From a virus, in the IMG/VR virus record IMGVR_UViG_3300036818_000033, positions 1-29,367 of that record: a stretch of 29,367 nucleotides of DNA. One strand, 5' to 3'. The notes beneath the pieces were generated by a model. That model was given only the letters and a program-made list of their open reading frames with translations. It did no database searches and was not told the DNA's origin. This document shows positions 6,961 through 29,367 of the stretch, piece by piece (within the stretch, counting starts at the first letter, position 1; every line of letters begins with the position of its first letter). Position numbers and translations under genes: made by a program.

Positions 6961-7555
6961 AGAAGGGATCCTCTTCGCTCTTGCCCTTCTTGCCCTTCTT
7001 CTTGGCCTTGTCCTTCTTCTTGCCAGAGCCGTTGCTTCCGGCGTCCTCGTCCCACGCGTCGGCATCGAACGGGAGGTAGCGGCCGACGTTGACCTGCCAG
7101 TCTCCCTCGTACCTGCGGCGCTTCGTGGACACCTGGCACCGGGAATCGTCGGAGCCCGGCTCCCACGTGGCGATCTTGCTAACCGAGCGGCCGAGAGTCT
7201 CGTTCTCGTCGTCAGTCACGTCGATCCTGCTCTTCACATCCTTGACCTTGAGACCGAAGATCATCAGGAACGGCTTGTACCGGAACGCCGCCGTTTCCAC
7301 GAACGTGATGTTGTCCCAGATCGGGAGGCCGTTGTACTGCGCGAGATCGCCGCCGTTGGCCTCGGCCTCGAACAGCGTCTTGAACATGAAGTTGTTGTTG
7401 GATGACATCGTTGCCCAGACGCGCTTGATCCTGCCGTTGAGGATCGTGCCGCGCGGCGGCAGTTCGCCCTCGTACTCAGCGAAATCCTCGCGGTCGGTGT
7501 ACTCCGCCTCGTCCAGAGCCTTCTCATCGAAGTTCGTAACCTTGAGCTTTGCCAC
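6959..7555 (-). CDS. Single-stranded-DNA-binding protein with EEDPF tail
   Basis: 198 residues. The body is a mixed beta protein (GTILNGRIKRVWATMSSN, then FRYKPFLMIFGLKVKDV) consistent with an OB fold, followed by an Asp/Asn-rich linker, a lysine-rich run and the terminal EEDPF. Acidic tips ending in a hydrophobic/Phe are the partner-recruiting tails of bacterial SSB and of phage gp2.5-type proteins. It is the gene next to the Sak4-like recombinase, and Sak4 proteins characteristically neighbour an SSB. The ATG at 7555 follows CCAGGAGGGCTAGAA. The lysine run directly before the acidic tip is unusual for an SSB. The assignment rests on tail, context and beta content rather than on a clear family signature. 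Confidence 0.65.
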   Translation of the reverse strand: MAKLKVTNFDEKALDEAEYTDREDFAEYEGELPPRGTILNGRIKRVWATMSSNNNFMFKTLFEAEANGGDLAQYNGLPIWDNITFVETAAFRYKPFLMIFGLKVKDVKSRIDVTDDENETLGRSVSKIATWEPGSDDSRCQVSTKRRRYEGDWQVNVGRYLPFDADAWDEDAGSNGSGKKKDKAKKKGKKGKSEEDPF

Positions 7556-7570
7556 TTCTAGCCCTCCTGG

Positions 7571-8455
7571 CTATCGTGCCGACTTGGCTTTGCGTGCCTT
7601 AGAACGGTCCCTCTTGAATTCAGCGCTCCCTTCTATACTGGCTATGATCCTCGGCATCACCGACAGGTCTCCCTCTTTCACGTCGATGTACCGGGGGAGG
7701 CACATGTAGCGGTCCTTGCACCACTGATATGGACCCCACGCTTCGGTGAGGATCCGGTGCACCGCCTTCTCGGAATTGTCCTTGCGGTTTTTGGCCGGAG
7801 CGAGCCCGATGAAGAGGACTACATCCATCTGGGCTGTGATGTACCCGGAGATCTCGTAGTCCTTGCCCTGGATCGCCGGGATGTTGAGGTCTTCGCCCTC
7901 GGAATCCTCGCGGTGCATCATGTTGGCCGTGAAGATCGTGTTGATCTCCATCTCGATGATCCGGTCCACGAAGCGCTTGAACATGTTCTGCCACTTCTGG
8001 TGATCCTGAATGGCAGGAATGTCAAGGTCACGGGCCTCGTTGTCCTCGTTGGCCATCTTGAGGATCCACCGGACGAGGAGCACCTGCATCTTCGTGAGGG
8101 AGTCGATGATGAGCCAGTCGAACTCTCCGGCGTGTGCGTCGATCCAGTTGAGCGAGGCTTCGACGTGATCCCAGTCGTACGCCTTGAGCACCTTAGCCGT
8201 GGACCCAAGCCGCTTGGCCGAGATCACGCCTTTCTCGGTAGTCAGGAAACAAGCCTTCGGAGCCATGCCCGCAGTGCCCGTCTTCCAGGATCCCGGATCC
8301 CCGAAAAACATGATGTTGACCGACTCGTTGAACGCGCCGAGATCCTCCGGGGCCACGGTGGGCAGCTTGCGCCCCTTGTTCCGGTCGATCGGTGCCCCGC
8401 GCTGCTTAGCTGCTGCGGGTTTCCGGCTCTTGAGCGTTACGACGTTGCCAGCCAC
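7571..8455 (-). CDS. Sak4-like RecA-fold ATPase (phage recombinase / ssDNA annealing)
   Basis: 294 residues with a single RecA-type core. Walker A is FGDPGSWKTG (51-60), a variant of GxxxxGKT in which Trp takes the Gly position before Lys; Walker B is DWLIIDSL (113-120). Later segments NTIFTANMMHRE and GYITAQMDVVLFIG fit the central strands. Sak4 proteins are short RecA relatives that anneal ssDNA and assist phage recombination. The start GTG at 8455 shares a base with the upstream TAG (TAGTG). The C-terminus is strongly basic. Context (SSB downstream, Cas4-like nuclease upstream) supports a recombination module. Confidence 0.8.
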   Translation of the reverse strand: MAGNVVTLKSRKPAAAKQRGAPIDRNKGRKLPTVAPEDLGAFNESVNIMFFGDPGSWKTGTAGMAPKACFLTTEKGVISAKRLGSTAKVLKAYDWDHVEASLNWIDAHAGEFDWLIIDSLTKMQVLLVRWILKMANEDNEARDLDIPAIQDHQKWQNMFKRFVDRIIEMEINTIFTANMMHREDSEGEDLNIPAIQGKDYEISGYITAQMDVVLFIGLAPAKNRKDNSEKAVHRILTEAWGPYQWCKDRYMCLPRYIDVKEGDLSVMPRIIASIEGSAEFKRDRSKARKAKSAR

Positions 8456-8805
8456 TATTCACCCCTGCTCTCTGCGGTCTCCCGCTGCTCGTGTGCGACG
8501 ACGAAAGAGGTCTCCGCACCGTGCTCATAGATCTTGTCGGCCTCGATGTAGAGCGTACCTGCTGGCTCCGGTGAATCCCGCTCGAACTCCGGCACCTTGC
8601 AGAGCGTGACCTCAACGAACCGGCCCAGGAACAGGCCCGCACGGTTCGAGATGTACCCGTACACGATCCGGTCGCTGAGCGAGTCCGCTCCCGGCTGGTA
8701 CTTGAACCGGAGCCACTGCGCCACAGGTGCCGAAGGAGTGTTGAGCCGCCGCCGTGCATCCTGGAGATCCTGAGAATCTAGGGTCGGTACCCGGCCGCCG
8801 CTCAT
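8455..8805 (-). CDS. Unknown protein, 116 aa
   Basis: No family recognised. Residues about 30-105 alternate hydrophobic and charged residues (AQWLRFKYQPG, RIVYGYISN, GRFVEVTLCKV, GTLYIEADKIYE), which suggests a small beta-barrel, possibly OB-like. The ATG at 8805 overlaps the upstream TGA as ATGA and the TAG overlaps the Sak4 start, so it belongs to the recombination operon and may be an accessory DNA-binding protein (inference). Confidence 0.75.
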   Translation of the reverse strand: MSGGRVPTLDSQDLQDARRRLNTPSAPVAQWLRFKYQPGADSLSDRIVYGYISNRAGLFLGRFVEVTLCKVPEFERDSPEPAGTLYIEADKIYEHGAETSFVVAHEQRETAESRGE

Positions 8806-8999
8806 GTCTTCTTCTTAGCGGTCTTCTTGGGGGCCTTCTTCTTCGGCTCCCGGGCCGCTGCCCGCTCGTCGGCGCGCTTGGCCGCGTCCTTGTTCACGAC
8901 GTGCTTGACCGGAGCGGGATCACTGGTCATATTCTTGACCCACGTCCCGCCAATCTTCGTAAATCCCATAGCCCTCATGGCAGCATCGGTTTTCTTCAC
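8802..8999 (-). CDS. Small basic protein with lysine-rich tail, 65 aa
   Basis: Starts at GTG 8999, which shares a base with the TAG of the nuclease gene (TAGTG) and has GGAGGCTGCGTA before it; the longer frame to 9137 is the shadow of the nuclease. The first 30 residues (MKKTDAAMRAMGFTKIGGTW) look folded; the last 20 are almost all Lys/Ala/Pro/Thr (KKKAPKKTAKKKT). Likely a nucleic-acid binder in the recombination operon (inference). Confidence 0.75.
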   Translation of the reverse strand: MKKTDAAMRAMGFTKIGGTWVKNMTSDPAPVKHVVNKDAAKRADERAAAREPKKKAPKKTAKKKT

Positions 9000-10006
9000 T
9001 ACGCAGCCTCCACAGCAGCCGACTTCCGGTGATCCGCGTACGGATCCCGCTCGGTATACATGGCCTTCTTGTACCGCTCGAACGATACCCCGCCCCGGTC
9101 GTGCAGTACGCACATCTCGAAGAATGGGCACTGCCAATGACAGGTCCAGTCCGGCGATTTCGTGAGCGGCAGCTTTCCTTTCCGGATCTTTCCCATGATC
9201 ACGGCTTCGTCCTGGATCGCCTCAAGCTGGCGCCTTCGCCGTCCGGCGTCCTTCTCAATGAGCGGGCGGTCGAACAGCGGACCCGGCTGAACCTTGGAGA
9301 TAGAGCCGTTCTGGTTCAGAGCCCGGCCCATCGAATCCTTCGGCCGCTCGTCCGGCAGCGACTTCTTGAGGTAGTTGTACTGAATCCCCTTGATGTTCTG
9401 CCCCTTGGACAGCACTCCCTGTTCCCGGAGCACCGACTGCGCCACGAGCCAGTACGTACCGGCTTGCGTGTCTATCTCAAGGTGCGCGGAGCCGAGCGCC
9501 TTCGCCGTCTTGTGCTCCATGAGGTAAACCTCGTCGTCGGACTTGTCCCGGTACACACCGTCGAACGTGCCCGCCATGACTACAATCGGTTTACCCGGCT
9601 TATCCGGGTGCGGGATCTCTACCTGGAACGGCTGCTCGGTGGCGATAACATCCCAGTTTTTGTCGATTGCGTACTTGTCATAGTACCCCTTGAGCATGTG
9701 CTCCCCGAGTGTGGCCGCGTCCACGAACACGTCTTCCCGGTAGTCGTCAGAGCCAGTAGCGTGTGTCCGGATCTCCTCCGTTTCCCCCTTGACCCACCTG
9801 TTCCATGCCACGTCCGGCCGCAGCCCGCGTTCCGCTCCGGGACGGTACCACTGCGCGAGCACCTCATGAACCCCGGTGCCGAACCACAGCGCGCTAGCTG
9901 GCTCGTATGAGCCGGTGAGTCCTTCCCGGTAGGTCCACCACCACTTTTGCGGGCAGCGCCGGAACGTCGATCTCTCGGAGTTGCGCAGGATCGGCACGTC
10001 ACCCAC
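8999..10006 (-). CDS. Cas4/RecB-family PD-(D/E)XK exonuclease with Fe-S cysteines
   Basis: 335 residues. Nuclease motifs are visible in order: H47 (FGTGVHEVL), D149 (AGTFDGVYRD), E164 and K166 (YLMEHKTAK), and QAGTYWLVAQ (motif IV-like Q/Y) at 181-190. Four cysteines, C18 (RRCPQKWWW) and C289/C293/C299 (TCHWQCPFFEMC), match the split Fe-S cluster site of Cas4 and AddB. Phage enzymes of this type resect DNA ends to give ssDNA for the recombinase; a Sak4-like ATPase and SSB lie just downstream. No CRISPR array or other cas gene is in the window. Start is GTG at 10006, 8 bases inside the upstream gene. Confidence 0.85.
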   Translation of the reverse strand: MGDVPILRNSERSTFRRCPQKWWWTYREGLTGSYEPASALWFGTGVHEVLAQWYRPGAERGLRPDVAWNRWVKGETEEIRTHATGSDDYREDVFVDAATLGEHMLKGYYDKYAIDKNWDVIATEQPFQVEIPHPDKPGKPIVVMAGTFDGVYRDKSDDEVYLMEHKTAKALGSAHLEIDTQAGTYWLVAQSVLREQGVLSKGQNIKGIQYNYLKKSLPDERPKDSMGRALNQNGSISKVQPGPLFDRPLIEKDAGRRRRQLEAIQDEAVIMGKIRKGKLPLTKSPDWTCHWQCPFFEMCVLHDRGGVSFERYKKAMYTERDPYADHRKSAAVEAA

Positions 10007-17663: not shown

Positions 17664-17690
17664 GTTCCGGAAGTTCTGGAAGTTCCTAGA
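17664..17690 (+). repeat. 9-bp tandem repeat over a stop codon
   Basis: Units gttccggaa, gttctggaa, gttcctaga. The last unit covers the TAG stop (17686-17688) of the fibre gene. Confidence 0.8.
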
Positions 17691-19965
17691 GCAGTGGCAC
17701 GTAGAAGTACGGGGTTTGCGACTGGGAAGTTGTGATGGCCCCCATCGTGTCACCGATGTTCGGCGGAGTGGTAAGCCCGGTGCTAGAGGCTCCTGCCAGT
17801 GTCAGAGCATTAGTGATTCCGGTACCTGCCGGATTTCCTCCGGCCACCGATGCCCCGGCAACGAAGATTGGCGGCCCGCTCGCTGCCACCATTATCCCGA
17901 AGTAGTACGGGCCGTCGTACGGCAGCACTCCGGGCACAGTGAAGTCGAGCGGGTAGAAGGTAGCTGTGGCTCCCCACACCGTGGCCGCGTCCGTCTGGTC
18001 TGCGGTAACGAAGATTACCTTGCGGGAAGAGTCGAGAATCACATACCAGCCGTGTGTGCCGCCTGTCTTCGCGGTGCTGCCTGTGAGCGCGACTGCCCGG
18101 CCGATGGGGGTTCCCTTAGCTCCGCCGAACGCGACGAGGTTAAGCGTCCCGGAGACGACCGCAGCAGGGATAGCCGTGGCCCGCAGACGCGGCATAGAGG
18201 CCACCACGGCTATCTCCGGGTGCGTGAGCAGGTCCGGGTCGGTCGGGGTGGTCACGTCGGCCGTAGCGCCGACCACGAGCGCGTTGTTGAACGTCGCCGT
18301 CTGGTTCGAATCGGCAGTCCGGACGGCCGAGATGACGTACTTGGCTGCTGTGAGCGTCGGCAGGCCGCTGTTGACCGTGCGCCGGACAGTCCATGCGATT
18401 CCGTCCGGGCTGGTGTACCACTTCGCGACTCCGGATGAGAAAACGATCTTCCACCACTTGTGCGTCGTGCCGGAGAATGTCAGTGTCGTGTCGGAGTTCG
18501 TGCCACCGGACCGGCTCCGCATGAGCAGGTTGGTCCCGGCCCGGCCGATGGCCAGCGAGTTGTTCGCGTCCACCTGCAGTTGCATGAGCGTCGTCGCGCT
18601 GGCAGCGCTCGGCGTCGTGACCGCCTCGATCTCGGCCCGCTTCCCGGTGAAGTCGAACGCGCTCACCGAATCGAGATGATCGTTGCCGCTAGCCGTCGCG
18701 GTAAGCTGCAGTGCAAGGCTGGCGATTGTTGCCGTACTTCCCACTGGAACCGTCCACAGAGCAGAGAAGTTCACCCCGTCGAAGTTCTGGAAATCGTCCT
18801 CAACGTCCGGAGCCCAGATGTTCTCCGGATACGGCTGGGATGCGATCTCATTGATGAGATCCTCGAAGTAGGCGTTCGGGTCCGTTGGGGCGGGAGTCTT
18901 GCCCCCGCCGACCGAGCCCGGGACCGCTCCGTACGGGTTCGGCAGCGTGCCGTCCGTGATGTAGACGTTGCCCGCCCGGTATTCCCGTGCCAGGACAATG
19001 GCCTCATCCCGCTTGAAGCTGTCGTACGCCCCGAACACCACGTGCAGGAACCGGTCGGCCGCGTAGTTGATTTCCCAGCCCGCATTCGCGTGCGCCCGGT
19101 ACATGCCGATGTCGCCCTCGAAGTTCGAGACGATATCGCAGGCCGTCATGTAGCTCTCGTCTACGACGGTGCCCGGGTTGATCACCACGATCCGGAGGCC
19201 AGTTGTCTTAGCCTTCACGTAATCGTGCAGGTCGGTGTAGTAGCCGAGGTTCGGCGCGTCGTTCGTGACCTCATCGAACATGATCCCGTCAACGCCATAC
19301 CACGTGAACCAGTCATCGATCTGTGGCTTGACGATCGTGGCCGCGTCCTTCGTGGTGAATGCGGTATCCACGTAGCCGAAGACCAGCATTCCGGCCGCCT
19401 TCATTTCCGCGATCTGCGTGGTGAAGTCGGTGTTTATGCTGGTACCCGGACCGCTGTCCGCGTTGACGAATACGAACGACAAGTACGGCGCAGCCTTCTG
19501 GAATTCGGCCCAAGCGCCACCACCCGTGTCAAAGAAGGACGGGTACACGTAGAACGGGCCGCCGACCCGGATAATCGCGTCTCCGCTCTGCTCCCCGGCC
19601 GCTGTCGTCGTGCCGCCCCCGCCGAACGCGGCGATCTGCGCTTCCATCGTGTCAAGCTCTGCCGACGTGTCGGTGGCGAACACCCAGTACCGGGGACCGG
19701 CCCCCGAATTGGCATCGAGTGCCATCCTGCGCGTATCCGGCGATGTGGCCGGACCCTGGAACTCCGGCAGGAAACCGGCCGAGTCGGTGTCTATCGACGT
19801 TGCCGCAACACCCGTTGAGTCAAGCAGGTCGGTAATCTGCGAACCACCAGAAAGTGCGTCAAAAAACAGGATCGTTGCCGAGGCAACCGGCTCGGCATCA
19901 CTCGTCGTCCCGTCAATCGAGAAAACCCAGTCGGTAGCCCCGCCGCCAAACTTGTGCCGTGCCAT
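17686..19965 (-). CDS. Tail fibre/depolymerase with spherulin-4 (GH135-like) glycosidase domain
   Basis: 759 residues in four parts. Residues 1-125 are a tail-attachment-type head domain. Residues about 134-375 read as a spherulin-4/GH135-like TIM barrel: YVYPSFFDTGGGAW, YLSFVFVNADSGPGT, AGMLVFGYVDTAF, WYGVDGIMFDEVTND (acidic pair D231/E232), RIVVINPGT and HVVFGAYDSF are successive strands. This family includes fungal Sph3, which cuts galactosaminogalactan. Residues about 388-575 are a LamG/concanavalin-like binding domain (DDFQNFDGVNFSALWTV). The last 180 residues form a beta-rich tip. It follows the repeat fibre by 9 bases; ATG at 19965 after TTTAGGGAGACAAC. Likely role: breaking host surface or capsule polysaccharide during adsorption (inference). 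A strong hairpin follows. Confidence 0.8.
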   Translation of the reverse strand: MARHKFGGGATDWVFSIDGTTSDAEPVASATILFFDALSGGSQITDLLDSTGVAATSIDTDSAGFLPEFQGPATSPDTRRMALDANSGAGPRYWVFATDTSAELDTMEAQIAAFGGGGTTTAAGEQSGDAIIRVGGPFYVYPSFFDTGGGAWAEFQKAAPYLSFVFVNADSGPGTSINTDFTTQIAEMKAAGMLVFGYVDTAFTTKDAATIVKPQIDDWFTWYGVDGIMFDEVTNDAPNLGYYTDLHDYVKAKTTGLRIVVINPGTVVDESYMTACDIVSNFEGDIGMYRAHANAGWEINYAADRFLHVVFGAYDSFKRDEAIVLAREYRAGNVYITDGTLPNPYGAVPGSVGGGKTPAPTDPNAYFEDLINEIASQPYPENIWAPDVEDDFQNFDGVNFSALWTVPVGSTATIASLALQLTATASGNDHLDSVSAFDFTGKRAEIEAVTTPSAASATTLMQLQVDANNSLAIGRAGTNLLMRSRSGGTNSDTTLTFSGTTHKWWKIVFSSGVAKWYTSPDGIAWTVRRTVNSGLPTLTAAKYVISAVRTADSNQTATFNNALVVGATADVTTPTDPDLLTHPEIAVVASMPRLRATAIPAAVVSGTLNLVAFGGAKGTPIGRAVALTGSTAKTGGTHGWYVILDSSRKVIFVTADQTDAATVWGATATFYPLDFTVPGVLPYDGPYYFGIMVAASGPPIFVAGASVAGGNPAGTGITNALTLAGASSTGLTTPPNIGDTMGAITTSQSQTPYFYVPLL

Positions 19966-19974
19966 GTTGTCTCC

Positions 19975-22900
19975 CTAAACTGGCTGAATAACGAGCGGGC
20001 CTCTTACGACCGTCGTCTCTGCACTGTCCTCGTTCGCTATCGCGTCGATACGGTGCCACATCGTACCGGGAATACTCACATTACTGCCGGGAATCGTCAC
20101 CGCAAGCTTGCCGCCCTCCGCATCGATTACCGAACCGTCAATCTGGACTCCGGTCTCGTCGTCCGCAGTATCCGTCGCCTTGATCGTCATCCGGATCGTG
20201 TAATCGGTGAGATCGAATGCGGCCGTCCCGTCGAACGCGGTGAATTCCCTGGTAACTGTATTTCCTTGCGGGACAGTAATGATAACCGTGCTGGCCACGA
20301 CGAAGTTCCTTTCCATAATTCCGGTAATAGCGATCTCTGCAGTCATAACCGCTCCAGCCGGAGGATCCGGGCGGCCTGTCACACCTTGACCCGGATCCAC
20401 CGTACCGGTTACCGGCCCCGTGGGGTGGTCCGGGAAGTTGCCCCCGGAAACGCGCATCTTCGGCAGCACAACCGCAATGTCGCCAGTGTTACCGGAGTCG
20501 GCCCGCACCCGCATTTTCGGCAGCGAAACACTTCCGCTGCCTAGCACGATTAGCGTGCCGTTTGCCAGCACCGACATCTTCGGCAGCCGGACGGCAGCAG
20601 CACCCGTAGTTAGCTCGGATCCGGCCGCCGAGACGCTCATCTTCGGCCGGGTGACGGCCACCACGCCGGTAACGACGACAGAGCCCGTCCCTGCGGCGCT
20701 CATCTTGCGCAGGGCGGCCGATCCGGTGCCGGTCACCACCGGGGCACCCGTAGCCTGCACGCGCATCTTAGCGAGGCTTACAGCGCTGCTCGCGGTCACC
20801 AAGAGTGTGCCGGATGCCGACACTGACATCTTCGGCATGCGCACGACACCGCTTGAGGACGGCGGCGGACCCGCATCTCCCGGTCCGGCCGCTGCCACAG
20901 ACATCTTCTTGAGCGCTGCGGCAACCGTGCCAGTTACTGCCGGGGCACCCTCGATATCCACCGAAGGCTTGTGCATCGATACTGCGGCGGTTCCGGTTAC
21001 CGTCAGGGTTCCCGAAGCTGCGGCGGACATCTTTGGCAACGCCACGCTGGCGAGAGCGGTAACGATGAGCGTGCCCGAGGCCGACACGGACGGCTTGTGC
21101 ATAGAGACCGCAGCATCGCCAGATACAACCGGCGCACCTTCGGCGGCCACACTCATCTTCCGGAGCGTTACCGCCGCATCGGACGTGACGACGACGGAAG
21201 CCTCAATGTCTGCCGACATCTTGTGCATCGAGATCGCGATGTCGCCGGAAAGAGACAGCGATCCTGCCGCAGCCACAGCAGGCTTGTGCATTGAGATCGC
21301 GATGTCTCCAGTTACAACAACAGTTCCGGACGCAGCCACAGCAGGCTTGTGCATCGATACGGCAGCACTGCCAGATACCACCGGAGCGCCGGCCGCAGCT
21401 ACGCTCATCTTGTGCATCGAAACAGCAGCCGTCGCTGTTACCACTTCGGCACCCGTGGCGGAGACCGAAGGCTTGTGCATCGAGACAGCAATAGTCCCAG
21501 ACAGGGAAAGAGATCCGGATGCCGCCACAGCAGGCTTGTGCATAGAAACAGCGGCGGTCCCGGTCACCACCTCGGTTCCGCTCGCGGCCACCGAAGGCTT
21601 GTGCGTGTGGACGGCAATGGTTCCTGTGACAACTGGCTGACCGGCAGCAGCCACCGAAGGCTTGTGTGTGTGAACTGCGGCCGTTCCAGTCACGACGAGT
21701 GTTCCGGATGCTGCAACGGACGGCTTGTGTGTGTGAACTGCGATAGTCCCCACATCGGCCGCAGACGGGGCATCCGCGACCCAGATTCCCGCATATTCCT
21801 GACCGGTAGCGTTTCCCTTGACAACCTCGGTCCAGGTACTCCCGAGAAGATCGGAAACCGAGATCGTGACCGCGCCCGTAGCCCCATTCGATGCGACTAG
21901 CAAGACCATAAGGCTGCCGCCCGGTGGCGTGAACTGGCTCGTGGAAACAGACGTGTCTTGCGGAGCTACCGCAAAGCCGGGTGACGACGCGTCTTTCGTT
22001 GGGGCAACTCCGGAAACAGCGGGCAGTATTTCCAGTCCTGCAAAGCTGCCGTTGAAGGAGTCCACCGAGCCATAGGTGGCAGTACCGGGCGTAACTGTCG
22101 CCGCCGCGAACATCGTCCCGTACTGCTGACTCATCCAGTTGTCATTCTGGTCGTCTAGGGACGTGAAATTAGCCGTAGGGTTGTTGTTGCCTCCGCCAGT
22201 GGTTCCGGATGACCCGTTTTCCAGAGCACCGAGCACAATCGACCCGGCTGTCGTGGTGGTGATCGATGCTTCGTGAGCGGCAGCAGCCGACTGTGAAGCT
22301 TTACCGGTACCGCTGTTCTGTGTTGCGGCATTCTTTGCTCCGGTGTAAACCAGCAGCCGGGCCGATATTCCGGGCCTAGTTGACCCGCCCTGAGTGACGG
22401 TAACGATATTCGACCCGGCAGTAACCGACGGCCGTATTACCAGGATTACGGAACATCCGCGCGCCGTGGAATTAGAGGAGAAGCTCCCGCTGTCCGTGAC
22501 TACCGCAGCGGTAGACAAACTAGCTTTATGCAGACAGGCAAGCTGCCCGGATGCCGAAACACCCGAACCGTTGATGTCCTTTGTCCACCCGGTTCCGGTG
22601 TCGGTAAAAGTCAGGCTGCCAGGAGTGCGCTGTATTCCGAAAACAGCCAGCCCCATGCATCCGGCCACCGATGGCTTCTCAGCGGTCGAGCATGTCATTG
22701 AGGTAAGAGTTGTGGTTGTGGTGCCGTTTGGCGTGCTCCCGAATGTATCGAGCGGCGAGTCGGTATCCGCACCGGAAAACTCGTAAAGAGTTACATCGGT
22801 AGCAGGAGTGCCCCCGGAGTTAGTGACGGTGAATGAGGGGGCCGAATCACTTCCGGCAGCTTTCTTTGTGAATACTGTGATTCTGACAGTTAGCGGAGTA

Positions 22901-23118
22901 GTACCGAATACTGTATTGGCACATTCATCTAGTTTCTTCCACCCGGAAGGAGTTGATGGCTCCCCGGATCCCGTGCCCGCTCCCGTGACGACAACCGCTA
23001 CCAGAAGGTTATTTGCTGTAGTGGTGTGCCCGAATGATGATGTGCAGGTCTGCGGAGAGCCAGAAACGGCCGTAGCGGTGTGCGTGTTTGTCGGTGTCCC
23101 GACGACTGCAACGGCCAT
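19975..23118 (-). CDS. Tail fibre with about 21 tandem 21-residue repeats
   Basis: 1047 residues. Residues 1-455 are beta-sandwich modules (HTATAVSGSPQTCTSSFGHT; GSIVLGALENGSSGTTGG; LLGSTWTEVVKG). Residues 458-893 are an array of 21-residue units close to TAAVSMHKPSVAASGTVVVTG; early units carry VHTHKPSV, middle ones VSMHKPSV, late ones drift to LPKMSV. One unit has a Pro/Ser insert (PGDAGPPPSSSG) and one is short. Residues about 940-1047 match the N-terminal domain of baseplate-upper-type proteins (TVTREFTAFDGTAAFDLTDY, then MTIKATDTADDETG). Repeats would form a long beta shaft. ATG at 23118 with GGGATGGTCA before it. Its partner, the GH135-like fibre, is 9 bases downstream. Confidence 0.8.
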   Translation of the reverse strand: MAVAVVGTPTNTHTATAVSGSPQTCTSSFGHTTTANNLLVAVVVTGAGTGSGEPSTPSGWKKLDECANTVFGTTPLTVRITVFTKKAAGSDSAPSFTVTNSGGTPATDVTLYEFSGADTDSPLDTFGSTPNGTTTTTLTSMTCSTAEKPSVAGCMGLAVFGIQRTPGSLTFTDTGTGWTKDINGSGVSASGQLACLHKASLSTAAVVTDSGSFSSNSTARGCSVILVIRPSVTAGSNIVTVTQGGSTRPGISARLLVYTGAKNAATQNSGTGKASQSAAAAHEASITTTTAGSIVLGALENGSSGTTGGGNNNPTANFTSLDDQNDNWMSQQYGTMFAAATVTPGTATYGSVDSFNGSFAGLEILPAVSGVAPTKDASSPGFAVAPQDTSVSTSQFTPPGGSLMVLLVASNGATGAVTISVSDLLGSTWTEVVKGNATGQEYAGIWVADAPSAADVGTIAVHTHKPSVAASGTLVVTGTAAVHTHKPSVAAAGQPVVTGTIAVHTHKPSVAASGTEVVTGTAAVSMHKPAVAASGSLSLSGTIAVSMHKPSVSATGAEVVTATAAVSMHKMSVAAAGAPVVSGSAAVSMHKPAVAASGTVVVTGDIAISMHKPAVAAAGSLSLSGDIAISMHKMSADIEASVVVTSDAAVTLRKMSVAAEGAPVVSGDAAVSMHKPSVSASGTLIVTALASVALPKMSAAASGTLTVTGTAAVSMHKPSVDIEGAPAVTGTVAAALKKMSVAAAGPGDAGPPPSSSGVVRMPKMSVSASGTLLVTASSAVSLAKMRVQATGAPVVTGTGSAALRKMSAAGTGSVVVTGVVAVTRPKMSVSAAGSELTTGAAAVRLPKMSVLANGTLIVLGSGSVSLPKMRVRADSGNTGDIAVVLPKMRVSGGNFPDHPTGPVTGTVDPGQGVTGRPDPPAGAVMTAEIAITGIMERNFVVASTVIITVPQGNTVTREFTAFDGTAAFDLTDYTIRMTIKATDTADDETGVQIDGSVIDAEGGKLAVTIPGSNVSIPGTMWHRIDAIANEDSAETTVVRGPLVIQPV
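20438..21747 (-). repeat. Coding tandem repeat array, 63-bp unit
   Basis: About 21 units of 63 bases encoding the 21-residue shaft repeats. Conserved protein positions are the A-V core, H/P-K and G near the end. At the DNA level units share CTTGTGCAT or CATCTT blocks but differ at many third positions, so the array is old and kept by selection on protein. Confidence 0.85.
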
Positions 23119-23190: not shown

Positions 23191-23619
23191 CTATTCAGTC
23201 TGGGTTATGGTCATCGATGAAACCTGGATCACGTCGTGCTGCACGATCGACGTGGTAACCAGGTTGAGGTCGCATCCGGACACTCCGGCCGACCCGTCGA
23301 GCACAACCGTCGTGCCGTCGCTCTTGAGCGCCCGGAACCAGGCTGCCGTGCCCGTGGCGTCCGCGTCGGAGTCCTGCGTGATCGCGTTGGCCGTGCCGGT
23401 TACCACCTTGGAGCCCGCCGAGCCGGAGGCCACCGACGCGCCGAACGCGGTCGCGCCGAACGTGAGCGTGCCGAGGAGCGTCTGCGCGCCGATCGCGGTG
23501 TTGGCGTCGGTCGGCTGGCTTCCGGTGTATACCTTGATCGTCCCGGAGTTGAGCAGGGCCGTTACCGCGTCCACGGCAGCCTTGGCCGCTGTGTCCGAGA
23601 AGAATGGTGTGTTGGTCAT
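23191..23619 (-). CDS. Tail-associated unknown protein, 142 aa
   Basis: The sequence alternates short helices and Ser/Thr/Gly/Ala-rich strands: TNTPFFSDTAAKAAVDAVTA, LLNSGTIKVYTGSQPTD, then GTLTFGATAFGASVASGS and an end of IQVSSMTITQTE. I recall similar small proteins in Streptomyces phage tail regions, so a structural or decoration role is likely, but no function is known to me. ATG at 23619 after AGAGGGGTT, 7 bases after the upstream stop. A hairpin separates it from the fibre. Confidence 0.65.
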   Translation of the reverse strand: MTNTPFFSDTAAKAAVDAVTALLNSGTIKVYTGSQPTDANTAIGAQTLLGTLTFGATAFGASVASGSAGSKVVTGTANAITQDSDADATGTAAWFRALKSDGTTVVLDGSAGVSGCDLNLVTTSIVQHDVIQVSSMTITQTE

Positions 23620-23626
23620 AACCCCT

Positions 23627-24022
23627 CTATTCGTTGTTTGCTGGGTTTGCAGGTTCCGCAGGTTCCGGATGTTCCGGGATGTGCGGCAAGTGCGGCGGGC
23701 TGCGGCGGGCGAGTACCCCGGCCTTCTGCAGCTTGAAGATCGCGTAAGCCATCCACGTCGTACGGACTGGAATAAGCATCACAATGAATACGTCAAACCA
23801 GCCGAACCACAGGTCGCGCGAGTTGAAGCCGAAGTAGTACCGCATGATCGCGGGCAGCAGCGCAACCGAGATGAGAATGTCTAGTGCGATCATCAGTTGC
23901 GGGAACCGCTCCCGGTTCCATGGCCAGTAAGTGAGCATAACGAACGGAACCGCGAGTGAGGTCCAGAACGCTATCTGAACGACGACCGTGGCCACGATCT
24001 GCTGCAGGTGAAACTGAGTCAC
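23627..24022 (-). CDS. Three-span membrane protein, 131 aa
   Basis: Three hydrophobic segments at about 13-34 (VVVQIAFWTSLAVPFVMLTY), 43-64 (LMIALDILISVALLPAIMRY) and 71-96 (LWFGWFDVFIVMLIPVRTTW). The C-terminal 25 residues are Pro/Glu/His/Asn-rich (PHIPEHPEPAEPANPANNE), encoded by the 9-bp repeat. Membrane proteins in this place among tail genes are often holin-like, but no endolysin is adjacent. GTG at 24022 overlaps the upstream TGA as GTGA. Confidence 0.75.
   Translation of the reverse strand: MTQFHLQQIVATVVVQIAFWTSLAVPFVMLTYWPWNRERFPQLMIALDILISVALLPAIMRYYFGFNSRDLWFGWFDVFIVMLIPVRTTWMAYAIFKLQKAGVLARRSPPHLPHIPEHPEPAEPANPANNE
23644..23688 (+). repeat. 9-bp tandem repeat, four units, in a membrane-protein tail
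   Basis: In-phase units ggtttgcag, gttccgcag, gttccggat, gttccggga, then a weaker tgtgcggca. Encodes the disordered PEHPEPAEPANPA tail on the minus strand. Confidence 0.75.
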
Positions 24023-24204
24023 GATCCGCCTTTCCCTCTCTTCTTCGCCATTCCCTGCACTAGAGCGGTTACGTTATTCCGGCTTCGCAATTCTTTTAGG
24101 GGATCGATTGCGGTTGTCCTGGCTTCGCGAAGAAGACGTTCCGAGAGTGCTAGCTGCTCCTCCGCGCGGGCCACTCCCGAGGGATCTCCTCGTGTTATGA
24201 CCAT
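24019..24204 (-). CDS. Small basic helical protein, 61 aa
   Basis: The ATG at 24204 is chosen over the ATG at 24231 because GGAGGAGAAGAAAT lies directly before it, a near-perfect ribosome site. The protein is helical and charged (RAEEQLALSERLLREARTTA) with a basic end (KKRGKGGS). No family recognised with certainty. It sits between two membrane-protein genes. Confidence 0.7.
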   Translation of the reverse strand: MVITRGDPSGVARAEEQLALSERLLREARTTAIDPLKELRSRNNVTALVQGMAKKRGKGGS

Positions 24205-24230
24205 ATTTCTTCTCCTCCGCCAGTGGAACA

Positions 24231-24515
24231 TTACCCGTCTCTGACCTCCTGATGGAGAGCCCTGAGCACGTTGACGGATGTCTGCGCCGCCAGGACTCCC
24301 ACTTCGTTGCGATCCCGCTCCTTATCGAGTGCTCTCGACATCAGGTCAATCTGCTTGTTCTTATCAGCAATAACCTCATCCTTAGCTGTCATCGCTGCCT
24401 GGTGAACTTTCCAGGTAATAGATCTGGTAGTTATGAATGAGCCCACCCAGAGCAAGAGGACAACAAGCGCTCCTGCGCCCCCTGTTATGAATGGGAGGTA
24501 ATCCTTTAGGTCCAT
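24231..24515 (-). CDS. Membrane-anchored coiled-coil protein, 94 aa
   Basis: One hydrophobic segment, about residues 8-30 (PFITGGAGALVVLLLWVGSF), then a charged helical region with heptad-like spacing (ADKNKQIDLMSRALDKERDR). One membrane anchor followed by a coiled coil is common in phage proteins encoded beside tail or lysis genes. Ribosome site GGGGAGGG is only one base from the ATG, closer than usual. TAA overlaps the ATG at 24231 that is not used. Confidence 0.7.
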   Translation of the reverse strand: MDLKDYLPFITGGAGALVVLLLWVGSFITTRSITWKVHQAAMTAKDEVIADKNKQIDLMSRALDKERDRNEVGVLAAQTSVNVLRALHQEVRDG

Positions 24516-24535
24516 CCCTCCCCGCTCTTCAATTG

Positions 24536-25486
24536 TCAGGTGACGAACCAGCGAACCGTTGCGTTGACGATCTTTCCTGCGGCGACGGCTTCATTTGCGT
24601 AGAGAATAACCGATCCGTCGGTGTCCACGAAGACCGCAACGGAAAGCACCGGGGGAACATTGAAACCTCCCCAGCCGGACCCGAATTCGGCAACAGTCGG
24701 ACGGTACCCGGTCGGCACGACGAGCGGGGTCGAGCCGTTCGAGTCTGACGTTCCGAGAGTCGAGCCAACTCGCTGCAGTGCGAGCCGCATGTGGACCGTG
24801 TTCCCGATCTTCCGGATCCGGCATACCGCGTCGGCATTCCACGCGGCAGCCTGCGGGCCGTTGACCGCGAGAGTTACCCAGCCAGTATCAGCTTCGACCG
24901 GGTTGTAGTAGCTCCACGACGAGCCGTTCCACAGCACCACCTTGGCCGTATCCACCTCGTAGGCGAGTGTGGGGCGCGTGGGCGTCGGCCGGGTACCCGA
25001 GTTGATGATCGCCACCGGGTTGCCGGAGAATCGGCGATAGTCCAGCAGCGAAACGAGCGAGCCGTCCGAGCTAGACTGCCACTGCCCGAGCAAGAGATCG
25101 CAGAATCGCGTGGTATTCAGGATCGCTGGGGGCGTCGGGGTTGCCGAAGGGGTGCCAGCAATAACTACCGGCTGCACAACGGTCGCCCCGGTCGTGCCCT
25201 GCCGGTCGAGCCGCAGCACGAGCCGGTCAATCCGGTTCTGTCCCGAAGCGGCCGGGATTGCCGTGGACACCGGAGCATCGGTGCCCCACAGTTGCCCACG
25301 GATCACTGCGTTTCCCGCAGCAGCTACAGCCGTGCGCGCCCCTGTGTTGAGCGACACCTTGAGATCGGTCGTTGACGTATCTCCGGCCACGCCATCGGTG
25401 ATGCCCATTGACAGCATCAGGTTTTCCCACTGCGCCATAGTGGTGATCTGGGTAAACGCGTTCGGCGCTGCGTTCGCAATCGTCAT
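24536..25486 (-). CDS. Receptor-binding / baseplate-type tail protein, 316 aa
   Basis: The N-terminus (PNAFTQITTMAQWENLMLSM followed by GITDGVAG) and the central segments ALAAG-like VIRGQLWGTDAPVSTAIPA, NRIDRLVLRLDRQ and TRFCDLLLGQWQS match a tail protein common in Streptomyces phages, with a C-terminal beta domain (HMRLALQRV, SVILYANEAVAAGKI). It probably lies at the tail tip and helps in host recognition (inference from family and place). ATG at 25486 overlaps the upstream TGA as ATGA. Confidence 0.75.
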   Translation of the reverse strand: MTIANAAPNAFTQITTMAQWENLMLSMGITDGVAGDTSTTDLKVSLNTGARTAVAAAGNAVIRGQLWGTDAPVSTAIPAASGQNRIDRLVLRLDRQGTTGATVVQPVVIAGTPSATPTPPAILNTTRFCDLLLGQWQSSSDGSLVSLLDYRRFSGNPVAIINSGTRPTPTRPTLAYEVDTAKVVLWNGSSWSYYNPVEADTGWVTLAVNGPQAAAWNADAVCRIRKIGNTVHMRLALQRVGSTLGTSDSNGSTPLVVPTGYRPTVAEFGSGWGGFNVPPVLSVAVFVDTDGSVILYANEAVAAGKIVNATVRWFVT

Positions 25487-26727
25487 GTCGTCCCCACGCG
25501 GCTAGAGAGAGCGCGCTCGATCTTCCGGACACGCTTTGTTAGCTGGTTTGTCAGTGATGTAGTCGTGTTACCGGCATCGGCAGGTACGCCTATCGTCGGC
25601 GTAACAGATACCGGAGGGCTCTGTGATCCGTCAAGCATTAGCTGCACTTGCGAAACGATGTCCGAATACTGGTCTCCATCGGCAACCTCTACAGTTACCT
25701 TGTCCCCTAGATAATAGTCGGTCCCGAACTCCAATTGCGGGAGATCCTGCGCCGACATTGAAAGCGTGGGACTCGCTATTCCCGACGCTATCGCGTCATT
25801 CCCGGATTGCGTGTTCTGAGTAGCATCCGTGGAACTCGACTGGTCTACGAGCGTCTCAATTTTCGTCCACGGATTCCCGGCTCCGGTTCCTGTTACCAGA
25901 ATCGGGGTAACCTGCCCGAGCACGCACGCATCGGTGAGCGTGGGGTCTTCGATCTGCAGCCCTACTGAGGTAAGGTTCCCGAGCCGCTTGGAGAAGTAGG
26001 CAGTTCCCGACAGGTCGTTCGGCTCGAACACATCGAACGTGATCCCGCCGCCACCCTCGTCCAGCATCACAGACACGCCTAGCGGCCCGCCTGTGGCGAT
26101 GAGGCTCCGGATAATGTCCATGAGCCCGAGATCCACGTTGGCCGCGAACTTGACCGTGTAGGAAACCGTTCCGCCCCGGGCTAGGTTGCTGGCAACGGCA
26201 AGAAGCGGGAAGCGCCTCGCCACGGCTGCCGAAGGACCGAGGTTCGCGGTCACGAAATGCTTGATCGCCGTCTCGCACGGCACCGCACTCTGCACGTCCG
26301 AAGCGGCGTAGGTCTGGCTGCCCCACGCGAGGGTTGGAGCCGGGAAAGCTAGCCGGTTGGCGACAATAGCTTCCAGTGTTGCACCGGACAGCACAATTTG
26401 CTCACCAACGGTGAAGACAGCGGCCGAGTTAACCCCCGGTACCGAGTTCTGGTATGCAGGGATCTCGCACTTGCCGCCAAACTTGAATTGCCCTCCCCAA
26501 TTGAACCAGACAATGAATCCTTGGTCCGCGAGCATGTCTTGCAGCAGGTTCCACAGCGCGTCGGTATACGGGACCATCGTGGACCATGAACCAACCTGGT
26601 TGAACAAGAGATTGGCACTCATGTTCTCGATATTCAGGACGCCCTGAGAGGTTAGGGTGGACGCGTCGAATACCTCGGCCGACACATTGCCTTGCAGACC
26701 GCTTCCGATGCTCACGCTCTCCCCCAT
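25483..26727 (-). CDS. Tail protein, ReqiPepy6 Gp37-like, 414 aa
   Basis: The overall layout, a beta-rich protein with WSTMVPYTDALWNLLQDMLA near residues 48-67, then a FTVGEQIVLSGATLEAIVAN segment and a C-terminal QLEFGTDYYLGDKVTVEVA block, resembles the siphovirus Gp37-like tail-tip proteins (baseplate-hub type). It likely forms part of the tail tip next to the distal-tail protein. ATG at 26727 lies inside the upstream gene (16-base overlap). The C-terminal 40 residues are Thr/Lys-rich. Confidence 0.65.
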   Translation of the reverse strand: MGESVSIGSGLQGNVSAEVFDASTLTSQGVLNIENMSANLLFNQVGSWSTMVPYTDALWNLLQDMLADQGFIVWFNWGGQFKFGGKCEIPAYQNSVPGVNSAAVFTVGEQIVLSGATLEAIVANRLAFPAPTLAWGSQTYAASDVQSAVPCETAIKHFVTANLGPSAAVARRFPLLAVASNLARGGTVSYTVKFAANVDLGLMDIIRSLIATGGPLGVSVMLDEGGGGITFDVFEPNDLSGTAYFSKRLGNLTSVGLQIEDPTLTDACVLGQVTPILVTGTGAGNPWTKIETLVDQSSSTDATQNTQSGNDAIASGIASPTLSMSAQDLPQLEFGTDYYLGDKVTVEVADGDQYSDIVSQVQLMLDGSQSPPVSVTPTIGVPADAGNTTTSLTNQLTKRVRKIERALSSRVGTT

Positions 26728-28148
26728 CTCCGGGTCATGAGCATCTCAACACTCGTGCCGTCGCCGCCACTGGTCATAGTGATATTGACCTCGTTGTCTC
26801 CGGGCACGAGCGCCCACAGGTCGGCCGGGGTGGTCTGCGTGATCTCGGCCCACTTGTTCACGGCAGAGTCGTTGACGGCGCTCTGCATGCCCGGGGCGGT
26901 CACTACGGTGAGAATCTCGCCGTCCGCGAGCGATGCGGAGAGTCCCCATGAGCGGCCGGTGGTGTTGTTTGTGATCTGCGGCGTTCCCGGACCGGTAATA
27001 ACCCAGGTCGGGAATGCGTCCTCGGTGCCGGAATTGGCGATTACCACGTCTCCGAGGGACGTAGCTCCTGCCAGTGCTATCGGCAGCAGCGGCAGGATAC
27101 CGATGAGGTTCTCGACCTTGACGTTATCCCCGTAAAGGTTCGTGGTGGACAGCGGCGTTCCGGTTATCTGGTAAAACAACTCGATAAACCCAACCGATCC
27201 GTCAGTTGGAACGGAGTAGGTCATGGTCTTCGTAACCGGTGTGCTAGCCGCGAGCGAGAACGCAGCCGGGAAATCGGCGTCCACAAATGTCGATCCATCT
27301 GGCGCATAGGCATTGATGCCAATCTGCGCCGCGCTCGTGATTACCGCGTTGCTGTCGAGCGTGATCGTGTACTTGACAGACTGGCCCGGGGACACACCGA
27401 TAAGCGAAGACTGGGCGGACGGCTGCGCGTGCGTGCCGTCGCCGTGAAGCTTGATCGAGTGCGTTCCGCTCGACGCGAAATCCGTGCTCTGGGTTAGCGA
27501 CGCTCCGGTGGCGAACGTAGCCCACCCGTCTGTGCCGTCCTCGAAGTCGAATGACTCCAGGGTAACCAGATCGGATGTGTCTTCGAACAGGAACGGCTCG
27601 GGTTCTGGGTCGTAGAAGTACGGGTCCACGGCTTCGAGCGTGAGCACGTACGTGGTGAAGAGCAGCCCGGAAAGATCCTTAGAATCGTTCGGCTGGTCAA
27701 GACCGGCTACGACATACACCGTGCACTGCCGCGAGCTTCCGTCCGGACGTTGCACAATGAGTGTTCCTGGTACCGGAATCCCGTCCCGGATCGTGGTGAA
27801 CGCCTTCGTGAACCGGTCAAGCAAGTTCAGGTAATCAAGCTGGCCCTCGGCATTATCCGTACTCATGATAAAGATCGTCGCGAAGACGTTCCGGACCTGC
27901 GGGATAAGTGTCTGCAGCACCGCGCCGCCTTGCACGAGCGGAACCGAAGATGCTGCGACTGGGATTCCGCTAAGGCCAACAATGTCTTCGCAGATAATCC
28001 CTTCGGTCATATCGGGATCCGAAAGGAACCAGGAATGCCCGTCCGGGTCGATGTAGGTAAGCTGGAGTGGGAGCGGCTGCGGCGTGATCGCCACGGTTGC
28101 CGGAGGGGGTCCGGCGGGGCCAACTCCTGCACTCCTGAAAAATGGCAT
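26712..28148 (-). CDS. Distal tail protein with carbohydrate-binding-like insert, 478 aa
   Basis: The N-terminal 200 residues follow the distal-tail (Dit/SPP1 gp19.1-like) plan: LQLTYIDPDGHSWFLSDPD at 29-47, VRNVFATIFIMSTDN, then LDRFTKAFTTIRDGIPVPGT and YVVAGLDQPNDSKDLSG. Residues about 205-345 form a carbohydrate-binding-like sandwich (LESFDFEDGTDGWATFATGA, SSGTHSIKLHGDGTHAQPS, KYTITLDSNAVITSA). After that comes a second tail domain typical of the C-terminal half (NSGTEDAFPTWVITGPGTPQ). It connects tube and tip. ATG at 28148 directly abuts the TAG of the tape measure gene. Confidence 0.75.
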   Translation of the reverse strand: MPFFRSAGVGPAGPPPATVAITPQPLPLQLTYIDPDGHSWFLSDPDMTEGIICEDIVGLSGIPVAASSVPLVQGGAVLQTLIPQVRNVFATIFIMSTDNAEGQLDYLNLLDRFTKAFTTIRDGIPVPGTLIVQRPDGSSRQCTVYVVAGLDQPNDSKDLSGLLFTTYVLTLEAVDPYFYDPEPEPFLFEDTSDLVTLESFDFEDGTDGWATFATGASLTQSTDFASSGTHSIKLHGDGTHAQPSAQSSLIGVSPGQSVKYTITLDSNAVITSAAQIGINAYAPDGSTFVDADFPAAFSLAASTPVTKTMTYSVPTDGSVGFIELFYQITGTPLSTTNLYGDNVKVENLIGILPLLPIALAGATSLGDVVIANSGTEDAFPTWVITGPGTPQITNNTTGRSWGLSASLADGEILTVVTAPGMQSAVNDSAVNKWAEITQTTPADLWALVPGDNEVNITMTSGGDGTSVEMLMTRRWGRA

Positions 28149-29367
28149 CTACTGTCTCCGCCCCACTCTTTCCCGCGAAGCTGCCTGCATGTCCATTGAC
28201 CGGAAAGCGTTCTGCACTCTCGACTCGAACACCGAATCTGGCATAGTGAAGTTGGCCGTGTAGTTCGTGGTGGCCGACATCCCGGCTTGCACCGCGCGCT
28301 CTAGGGTGCCCCACTGCGACGGCGAGAACACCGGCTCGGGCTGCCCGGTCCCGTTCATCCCTAGGTTCATCCCCGGCATCATCCACCCGCCGTCGTCATA
28401 CCAGTTGAACTGCCGTTCATGAGCCCACGCACCGGCCGGAGTCAGGTATCTGCCGTGGATGTAGCCCATTCCCCAGCGCTCCTGCGTGGCGGGGTTGGTG
28501 CGCCAGTCGGCACCGGCCGATGCCATCTTGGAGGCCGGGAGGCTCTGCGGGATTCCGTACGCTCCTGAACTTGGGTTTTCGGCGTACTGGTTCCAGCCGG
28601 ATTCCTGATTCCACAGGGCTTGCAAGTACGGGAACTGTGCTGCAACCGACCAGCCGAACAGCGGCATTAGTTCCTTGGCAAGCTGCTGGTTAGCTGCCGC
28701 CCCGGCACCGTGCGCGCCGAGCGAGCCACCGGGCAGCGCCGCACTCTTCGCGGCGGTTTGGGCGGTCTGCATTGCATCCACAATCGCGTTGCCGACCGCT
28801 TGTGTCAGTGTTGATTCGGTTACGTTGTAGTCGTGCTTGATGATCGTGTCGGCCCGGGGGAAATCACCGATCGCACCACCGATAAGGCCACCAGAGGCAA
28901 ACCCGGGAATCGAGCCGCGCAAGTGGTCAACTGCCCCGGAAGCCACAATCGGCGGCGGCACGATTAGCTCTCCGCGCTGCACCGCTACTATCTGGTCATC
29001 AACGCCCATTGCCCCGGAGTTCACGTACATACCGTGAGCCGCCGCGAAAAACTGGGCTCCGTGCCCCTTGCCACCCTCGATCTTCTGCTGAATAGTCCAG
29101 TGCCCGGCACCGTTGATGTCAATGCCGACATGCTCATTCTTCGGGATCTGGTGAATGATCTTAATGAGCTTGTCGATTTCGCCGCGCACACTCGCGTTGT
29201 GATCGCCAAGCTGCCGCAGGAATGGAATCGACTGGTTCAGGACTTGCAAGTCGTGTGCCCGCTGCGTGCCGGTCGCGGTGAGTGTGGCCGATGCCAGATT
29301 CTTGAGGTCACCAAGCGTCGTCGCGTAGGCCGAGAACGAGTTGCGCTGTGCCTGTGTCTGGTCTCCG
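28149..29367 (-). CDS. Tape-measure protein, C-terminal part (5' end outside window)
   Basis: The frame is open through the right edge, so the gene begins beyond the window; 405 residues are visible. The N-terminal 150 visible residues include Gly-rich membrane-like segments (GSIPGFASGGLIGGAIG). A peptidoglycan-cutting domain follows: KELMPLFGWSVAAQFPYLQ, LWNQESGWNQYAENP (likely catalytic Glu at about 255), GAYGIPQSLPASKMA and WGMGYIHGRYLTPAGAW, the pattern of lysozyme-like transglycosylase domains. The last 80 residues resemble tape-measure tails. Such domains help the tail cross the cell wall. A TTG at 29249 is internal and not the real start. Confidence 0.8.
   Translation of the reverse strand, partial: GDQTQAQRNSFSAYATTLGDLKNLASATLTATGTQRAHDLQVLNQSIPFLRQLGDHNASVRGEIDKLIKIIHQIPKNEHVGIDINGAGHWTIQQKIEGGKGHGAQFFAAAHGMYVNSGAMGVDDQIVAVQRGELIVPPPIVASGAVDHLRGSIPGFASGGLIGGAIGDFPRADTIIKHDYNVTESTLTQAVGNAIVDAMQTAQTAAKSAALPGGSLGAHGAGAAANQQLAKELMPLFGWSVAAQFPYLQALWNQESGWNQYAENPSSGAYGIPQSLPASKMASAGADWRTNPATQERWGMGYIHGRYLTPAGAWAHERQFNWYDDGGWMMPGMNLGMNGTGQPEPVFSPSQWGTLERAVQAGMSATTNYTANFTMPDSVFESRVQNAFRSMDMQAASRERVGRRQ

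Follow-up and report, generated by a model that had tools for sequence, protein, structure and literature searches.

Does a viral gene with a spherulin-4-like domain encode a tail enzyme that attacks a host polymer, a lysis enzyme, or an auxiliary gene of use to the host? Tail-borne depolymerases are well known, and molds trim a sticky amino-sugar biofilm polymer with enzymes of the GH135 kind. The gene in question lies in IMG/VR record IMGVR_UViG_3300036818_000033, of which we analyzed a stretch of 29,367 nt (the window) whose recognizable genes are all on the minus strand. An earlier reading made from the letters of the DNA (the sequence-only reading) had placed the ORF at positions 17686-19965, and these coordinates were recovered exactly: the ORF runs on the minus strand, starts with ATG, and encodes 759 aa (Table 1). 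The explanation we favor, at a probability of roughly two in three, is that the product is a tail fiber or tailspike of a Streptomyces-like actinobacterial siphovirus, in which a GH135 barrel would cut a Pel/GAG-like, GalNAc-rich polymer on the host surface. Computation yielded the domain, its fold, the conserved catalytic residues, the position in a tail operon, and the modular head; the activity, substrate, host, and binding role proposed below are read from these.

Table 1. Position of the tail-fiber gene, its parts, and its upstream neighbors in the window.
Feature	Coordinates	Strand	Evidence
Whole tail-fiber gene, 759 aa	17686..19965	-	ATG ORF; collinear homologue in viral contig L060, 59% identity over residues 1-566
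N-terminal tail-attachment head, residues 1-110	19636..19965	-	phrog_27064, E 2.5e-15; 74% identity in L060; Kromp, Ponzi, Ibantik, Marky
Spherulin4/GH135 TIM barrel, residues 133-355	18901..19569	-	PF12138, E 3e-34; AlphaFold2 pLDDT 92.9; Sph3 Z 25.6
Codons of D231 (putative nucleophile) and E232 (Sph3 D166/E167)	19270..19275	-	Alignment to 5c5g/5d6t; end of strand beta-4
Codon of E283 (putative acid/base; Sph3 E222)	19117..19119	-	Alignment to 5c5g/5d6t; strand beta-6
Beta-rich module, residues 386-567, presumed carbohydrate binder	18265..18810	-	Kept in L060, L061, and Streptomyces phages Ponzi, Hiyaa, Galactica, and Kromp (gp22)
C-terminal segment, residues 573-759	17689..18249	-	No relative found in phages, viral contigs, collected loci, or PDB
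Upstream 1047-aa repeat protein, BppU_N/phrog_1084-like C-terminus, tail context	19975..23118	-	
Upstream tail operon: phrog_3758 virion protein, phrog_17342 protein, Gp37-like and Dit-like minor tail proteins, SLT/tape-measure end	23191..29249	-	

Tail operon, head, and probable host

Read from right to left, the window carries the SLT-domain end of a tape-measure gene, genes for Dit-like, Gp37-like, and phrog_17342 proteins, two small ORFs, a phrog_3758 gene, the gene for a 1047-aa repeat protein, and the GH135 fiber gene, which lies inside the tail operon as a tail-fiber gene should. The order Dit-like, Gp37-like, phrog_17342, and, further on, the fiber is also found in Streptomyces phage Kromp and in viral contig L060. 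The 1047-aa protein contains tandem 63-bp (21-aa) repeats of the type 'AVSMHKPSVAASG' at positions 21220-21743 (minus strand) and ends in a BppU_N-like domain; in L060 this C-terminus has a gene of its own (107 aa).

The tail-attachment head of the sequence-only reading was borne out. Residues 1-116 match phrog_27064; residues 1-102 share 44% identity with Kromp gp21, and residues 1-72 share about 40-42% with Ponzi gp58 and Ibantik gp83. Streptomyces phage Marky has the same head. In Kromp, Ponzi, and Ibantik, the gene with the head follows the Dit-like and Gp37-like homologues, in the order seen in the window. With this synteny to isolated Streptomyces phages and the common head, the identification of the protein as a predicted tail fiber, also made earlier, is well supported, and its first ~110 residues would dock the fiber to the siphovirus tail tip.

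What follows the head varies. Ponzi gp58 has the head, the downstream module, and the operon position of the window's fiber, but its cargo is a GH46 chitosanase instead of GH135; Kromp gp21 and Ibantik gp83 likewise share the head behind matching tail genes but lack GH135, and Ibantik carries a pectate-lyase-like beta-helix. One Streptomyces-phage tail socket thus accepts three or more sugar-attacking cargos that have no relation to one another. In an actinobacterial genome (G113; L106 6333-9716), Dit-like and Gp37-like homologues are followed by a weak match to the head, likely part of a prophage; pelF and GH135 are present elsewhere in that genome.

The position of the gene also bears on the idea that the enzyme acts at lysis, releasing progeny from a host polymer layer, and is not a tool for entry. 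Streptococcus phage VA460 has an unannotated GH135 gene between a holin and an amidase lysin (L003 5857-7146), and in Ponzi, Ibantik, and Kromp an endolysin lies within a few genes after the fiber. However, the head of the window's fiber could be aligned with tail proteins but not with the protein of VA460, and the upstream neighbors of the gene are tail genes, so a role in lysis appears very unlikely.

An actinobacterium is the most likely host, given a GC content of about 60-64% and a Gp37-like gene whose relatives occur in phages of Streptomyces and Microbacterium. Judged by the similarity of the tail genes, this soil phage would probably infect Streptomyces-like bacteria. A search for tRNAs as a clue to the host found none in four viral relatives.

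A GH135 barrel with a conserved, probably catalytic pair

The Pfam profile PF12138 (Spherulin4) covers residues 137-349 over positions 5-229 of its 239, and its 119 bits against a cut-off of 30.2 exclude a chance match. We built a profile of 59 rows from the window and its relatives in phages and in bacterial and archaeal genomes; it retrieved the Sph3 sequence of A. clavatus at an E value of 8e-38. An AlphaFold2 model of residues 128-358 has eight strands arranged as a TIM barrel, and in the structural comparison the best solved structure by far was Sph3 (rmsd 2.5 over 220 residues), with lower matches to GH191 (Z 15.9) and PelA (Z 13.8-13.9). The assignment to a TIM barrel of the spherulin-4 group, previously made from the sequence alone, is supported by profile and predicted fold alike.

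Sph3 (Aspergillus, GH135; PDB 5c5g and 5d6t), however, is associated with the membrane and takes part in fungal GAG synthesis (PMC12054363), whereas the window's barrel is built into a phage fiber as one of several modules and shares about 24% identity with it. The galactosaminidases PelA (GH166), GH191, and GH114 (Ega3) have the barrel and the presumed substrate class in common with the window's fiber (PMC12054363); for GH191 and PelA the structural match is clearly weaker than for Sph3.

In the alignment to the two Sph3 structures, D231, E232, and E283 correspond to D166, E167, and E222. The catalytic residues have been described as an aspartate acting as nucleophile and a glutamate acting as acid/base, the latter being Glu222 in Sph3 (PMC12054363). 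That paper prints the aspartate as Asp196; our alignment and the residue numbers in PMC10485009 give Asp166. Every one of the 59 rows of the profile has D231 and E283, as well as N263, Y198, and T201, and E232 is kept in 58. In the model, D231 is residue 104, at the end of beta-4 (100-104), and E283 is residue 156, within beta-6 (151-158), which places the putative catalytic aspartate and glutamate at the C-terminal strand ends, on the C-terminal face of the barrel. Neither of the outcomes named as refuting the sequence-only reading, a fold other than a TIM barrel or acidic residues away from the barrel end, was obtained.

The sequence-only reading had pointed to the acidic pair in the motif GIMFDE. 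The motif is present (residues 227-232) and its aspartate, D231, is conserved; the part that did not stand is E232 as the catalytic partner, a place likely taken by E283. The adjacent pair was rejected and D231 with E283 taken as the working pair because the GH135 genes in the pelF operons of Streptomyces californicus and Kocuria rosea have R at the position of E232 while keeping the equivalents of D231 and E283. R at this position (Sph3 E167) is found in the GH135 genes of loci L111, L112, and L114. The catalytic pair is thus likely D231 and E283, and the barrel would be an endo-acting glycoside hydrolase in which D231 is the putative nucleophile and E283 the putative acid/base.

Inactive enzyme folds serve phage tails for binding, and E232 varies in some relatives; the barrel might accordingly have no catalytic activity and serve the fiber only in carbohydrate binding or as a structural part. 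Against this, D231, E283, N263, Y198, and T201 would be expected to decay if activity were dispensable, and they have not changed in the 59 rows; in the model, moreover, the conserved residues lie where an active barrel would have them. We regard an idle barrel as unlikely and favor an active hydrolase.

The C-terminal half of the fiber

Residues ~386-567 form a real conserved module, with 59-66% identity in the viral contigs L060 and L061 and with relatives in the tail proteins of four Streptomyces phages (Table 1). Pfam gave no match above the cut-off in these residues. The Kromp gp22 relative matched DUF1349 with an E value of 0.0075, below the cut-off, and chains of viral fiber proteins in the PDB, at profile E values of 0.001-0.05, were too weak a guide to the fold. 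The model of residues 370-759, built from three sequences only, has a pLDDT of 31.8, too low to assign a fold to this half of the protein. The LamG-like (jelly-roll) fold proposed in the sequence-only reading is thus a putative one, and the module is presumed to be a carbohydrate binder.

Residues 573-759 are a further part that was absent from the earlier list of domains. By eye this segment resembles the end of the L062 fiber, but that kinship was dropped at a BLAST E value of 0.66.

Association with pelF and the probable substrate

To identify a polymer on which the barrel could act, 396 actinobacterial genomes were searched for GH135 with the fiber profile and for PelF with PF11997, a domain that sits at the start of proteins annotated PelF. 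GH135 was present in 15 genomes (11 by Pfam alone) and PF11997 in 28. Fourteen of the 15 GH135-bearing genomes also encode a PelF-type glycosyltransferase (Fisher p 3e-17, a value that ignores the kinship of the genomes), and at 19 of the 23 places with a GH135 gene, a PF11997 gene is no more than 5.1 kb away.

Annotated records of S. californicus (plasmid NZ_CP070247; L111 4038-13472) and Kocuria rosea (plasmid NZ_CP126484; L112 4803-11508) show pelF, GH135, and GH114 in one run of genes. Both loci resemble the fungal GAG cluster, the parts of which are described in PMC7229062; the Kocuria locus also encodes a weakly matching Agd3-like protein. The GH135 proteins of these operons belong to the window's family and have both catalytic residues; in contrast to the window's gene, theirs are cellular genes beside pelF and GH114, without E232 and with about 31% identity to the phage barrel. 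Two further GH135 genes on Streptomyces plasmids keep E232 and lie beside sugar transport and beta-galactosidase genes, with no pelF nearby.

PMC7229062 has already treated GAG-like operons of bacteria and the galactosamine polysaccharides found in the cell walls of Streptomyces, and PMC9135694 gives Pel as mainly alpha-1,4-linked GalN and GalNAc. The co-occurrence of GH135 and pelF, the operons, and the chemistry of Pel and GAG make a Pel/GAG-like GalNAc polymer on the host surface our best guess for the substrate.

A possible but rather doubtful alternative is that the fiber hydrolyzes some other polymer, for example a wall teichoic acid bearing galactosamine or GalNAc, or another amino-sugar polysaccharide. 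Characterized GH135 enzymes are few (PMC12054363), S. lividans produces a PNAG-like polymer (PMC5972031), and the GH46 chitosanase that Ponzi carries on the same head indicates that such tails attack more than one amino-sugar polymer. The low identity between the phage-type and operon enzymes and the bacterial GH135 genes found away from pelF point the same way. On the other hand, the barrel is far nearer to Sph3 than to other solved folds and retains the catalytic residues, and most of its relatives in actinobacteria show linkage to pelF. Counterpoints to the explanation we favor are the pelF-free plasmid loci, the distance to operon copies without E232, the kinship of genomes that the Fisher value ignores, a host assigned from tail-gene similarity, and the low-confidence model of the presumed binding module.

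If a Pel/GAG-like polymer is the substrate, the barrel would cleave internal alpha-1,4 bonds of this GalNAc-rich chain, as Sph3 does. The downstream module would probably keep the fiber on the sugar chain, and the phage would thereby open a path to the cell wall. Such a protein would be a phage enzyme against a class of galactosamine biofilm polymers with few characterized hydrolases, and it would give a handle on which soil actinobacteria produce them.

Viral relatives and published viral PF12138 genes

A search of the viral contigs with the full-length protein gave no match, and the domain alignment was needed to find relatives. L060 is collinear with the window over eleven genes, the fiber included; the head is 74% identical, and the barrel and the following module 59% each. 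The GH135 fiber gene of L060 is followed by what resembles a separate tailspike gene (7315-9009). Compared with L060, L061 is nearer to the window's fiber in the module (66%), farther from it in the barrel (51%), and unlike it in the head, a pattern of module exchange. In L062 (5821-8610) and L064 (5635-8460) the barrel is fused to a long tailspike-like region, in which Pfam recognizes a beta-helix in L064 only.

In a tree of the barrels, the window's barrel and five other phage barrels form one group (support 99/94). A sister relation of this group to Rubrobacter-like cellular GH135 reached only 91/59 and was dropped. A tree constraining all phage GH135 to a single clade was rejected (AU p 2e-10; the bootstrap had not fully settled, and the tree has long branches). 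Subject to these long branches, GH135 was therefore captured more than once.

Viral genes of the "spherulation-specific family 4" (SSF) from Atacama soil have been proposed as AMGs for spore formation (PMC8269230). They belong to the window's Pfam family, and their authors found the nearest proteins in actinobacteria; they differ in the role assigned to them. The reading as an auxiliary gene, one that would aid the host in sporulation or under stress, is based in that paper on the family name. For the window's gene, we consider it highly improbable: the protein is fused to a tail head within a tail operon and so is not a stand-alone gene, and its fold is that of a glycosidase. The locus fits a tail depolymerase better. 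The published descriptions, large proteins with a mean length of 1,265 aa and dissimilar SSF genes between syntenic flanks (PMC8269230), also suit swapped fibers, and we suggest this for the three Atacama proteins (LC2_3, LC2_4, and LC2_62), though not for every viral member of the family.

More broadly, we put forward tentatively that GH135 on phage tails may be a repeatedly captured class of depolymerases for Pel/GAG-like GalNAc polymers, in which phages of actinobacteria that make such polymers carry a relative of their host's own trimming enzyme, and that many of the published viral "spore-formation" AMGs may be tail parts. This would offer a testable alternative to the AMG reading of viral PF12138 genes. 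Our literature search found no paper that describes GH135 as part of a phage tail; a paper on Exiguobacterium phages that contains the term was set aside as irrelevant, the passage concerned being a general CAZyme inventory with no link to the tail.

Some viral relatives have no clear tail context. L065 (5968-6705) and L067 (5962-6888), on contigs of 135-148 kb, are small free-standing GH135 genes near replication genes and not near tail genes. Among cellular genomes, Pelomonas spp. (L039 4852-6786, L040, and L053) carry two GH135 genes side by side, both very divergent; in the tree, a Caballeronia gene joins the second copies in a long-branch group.
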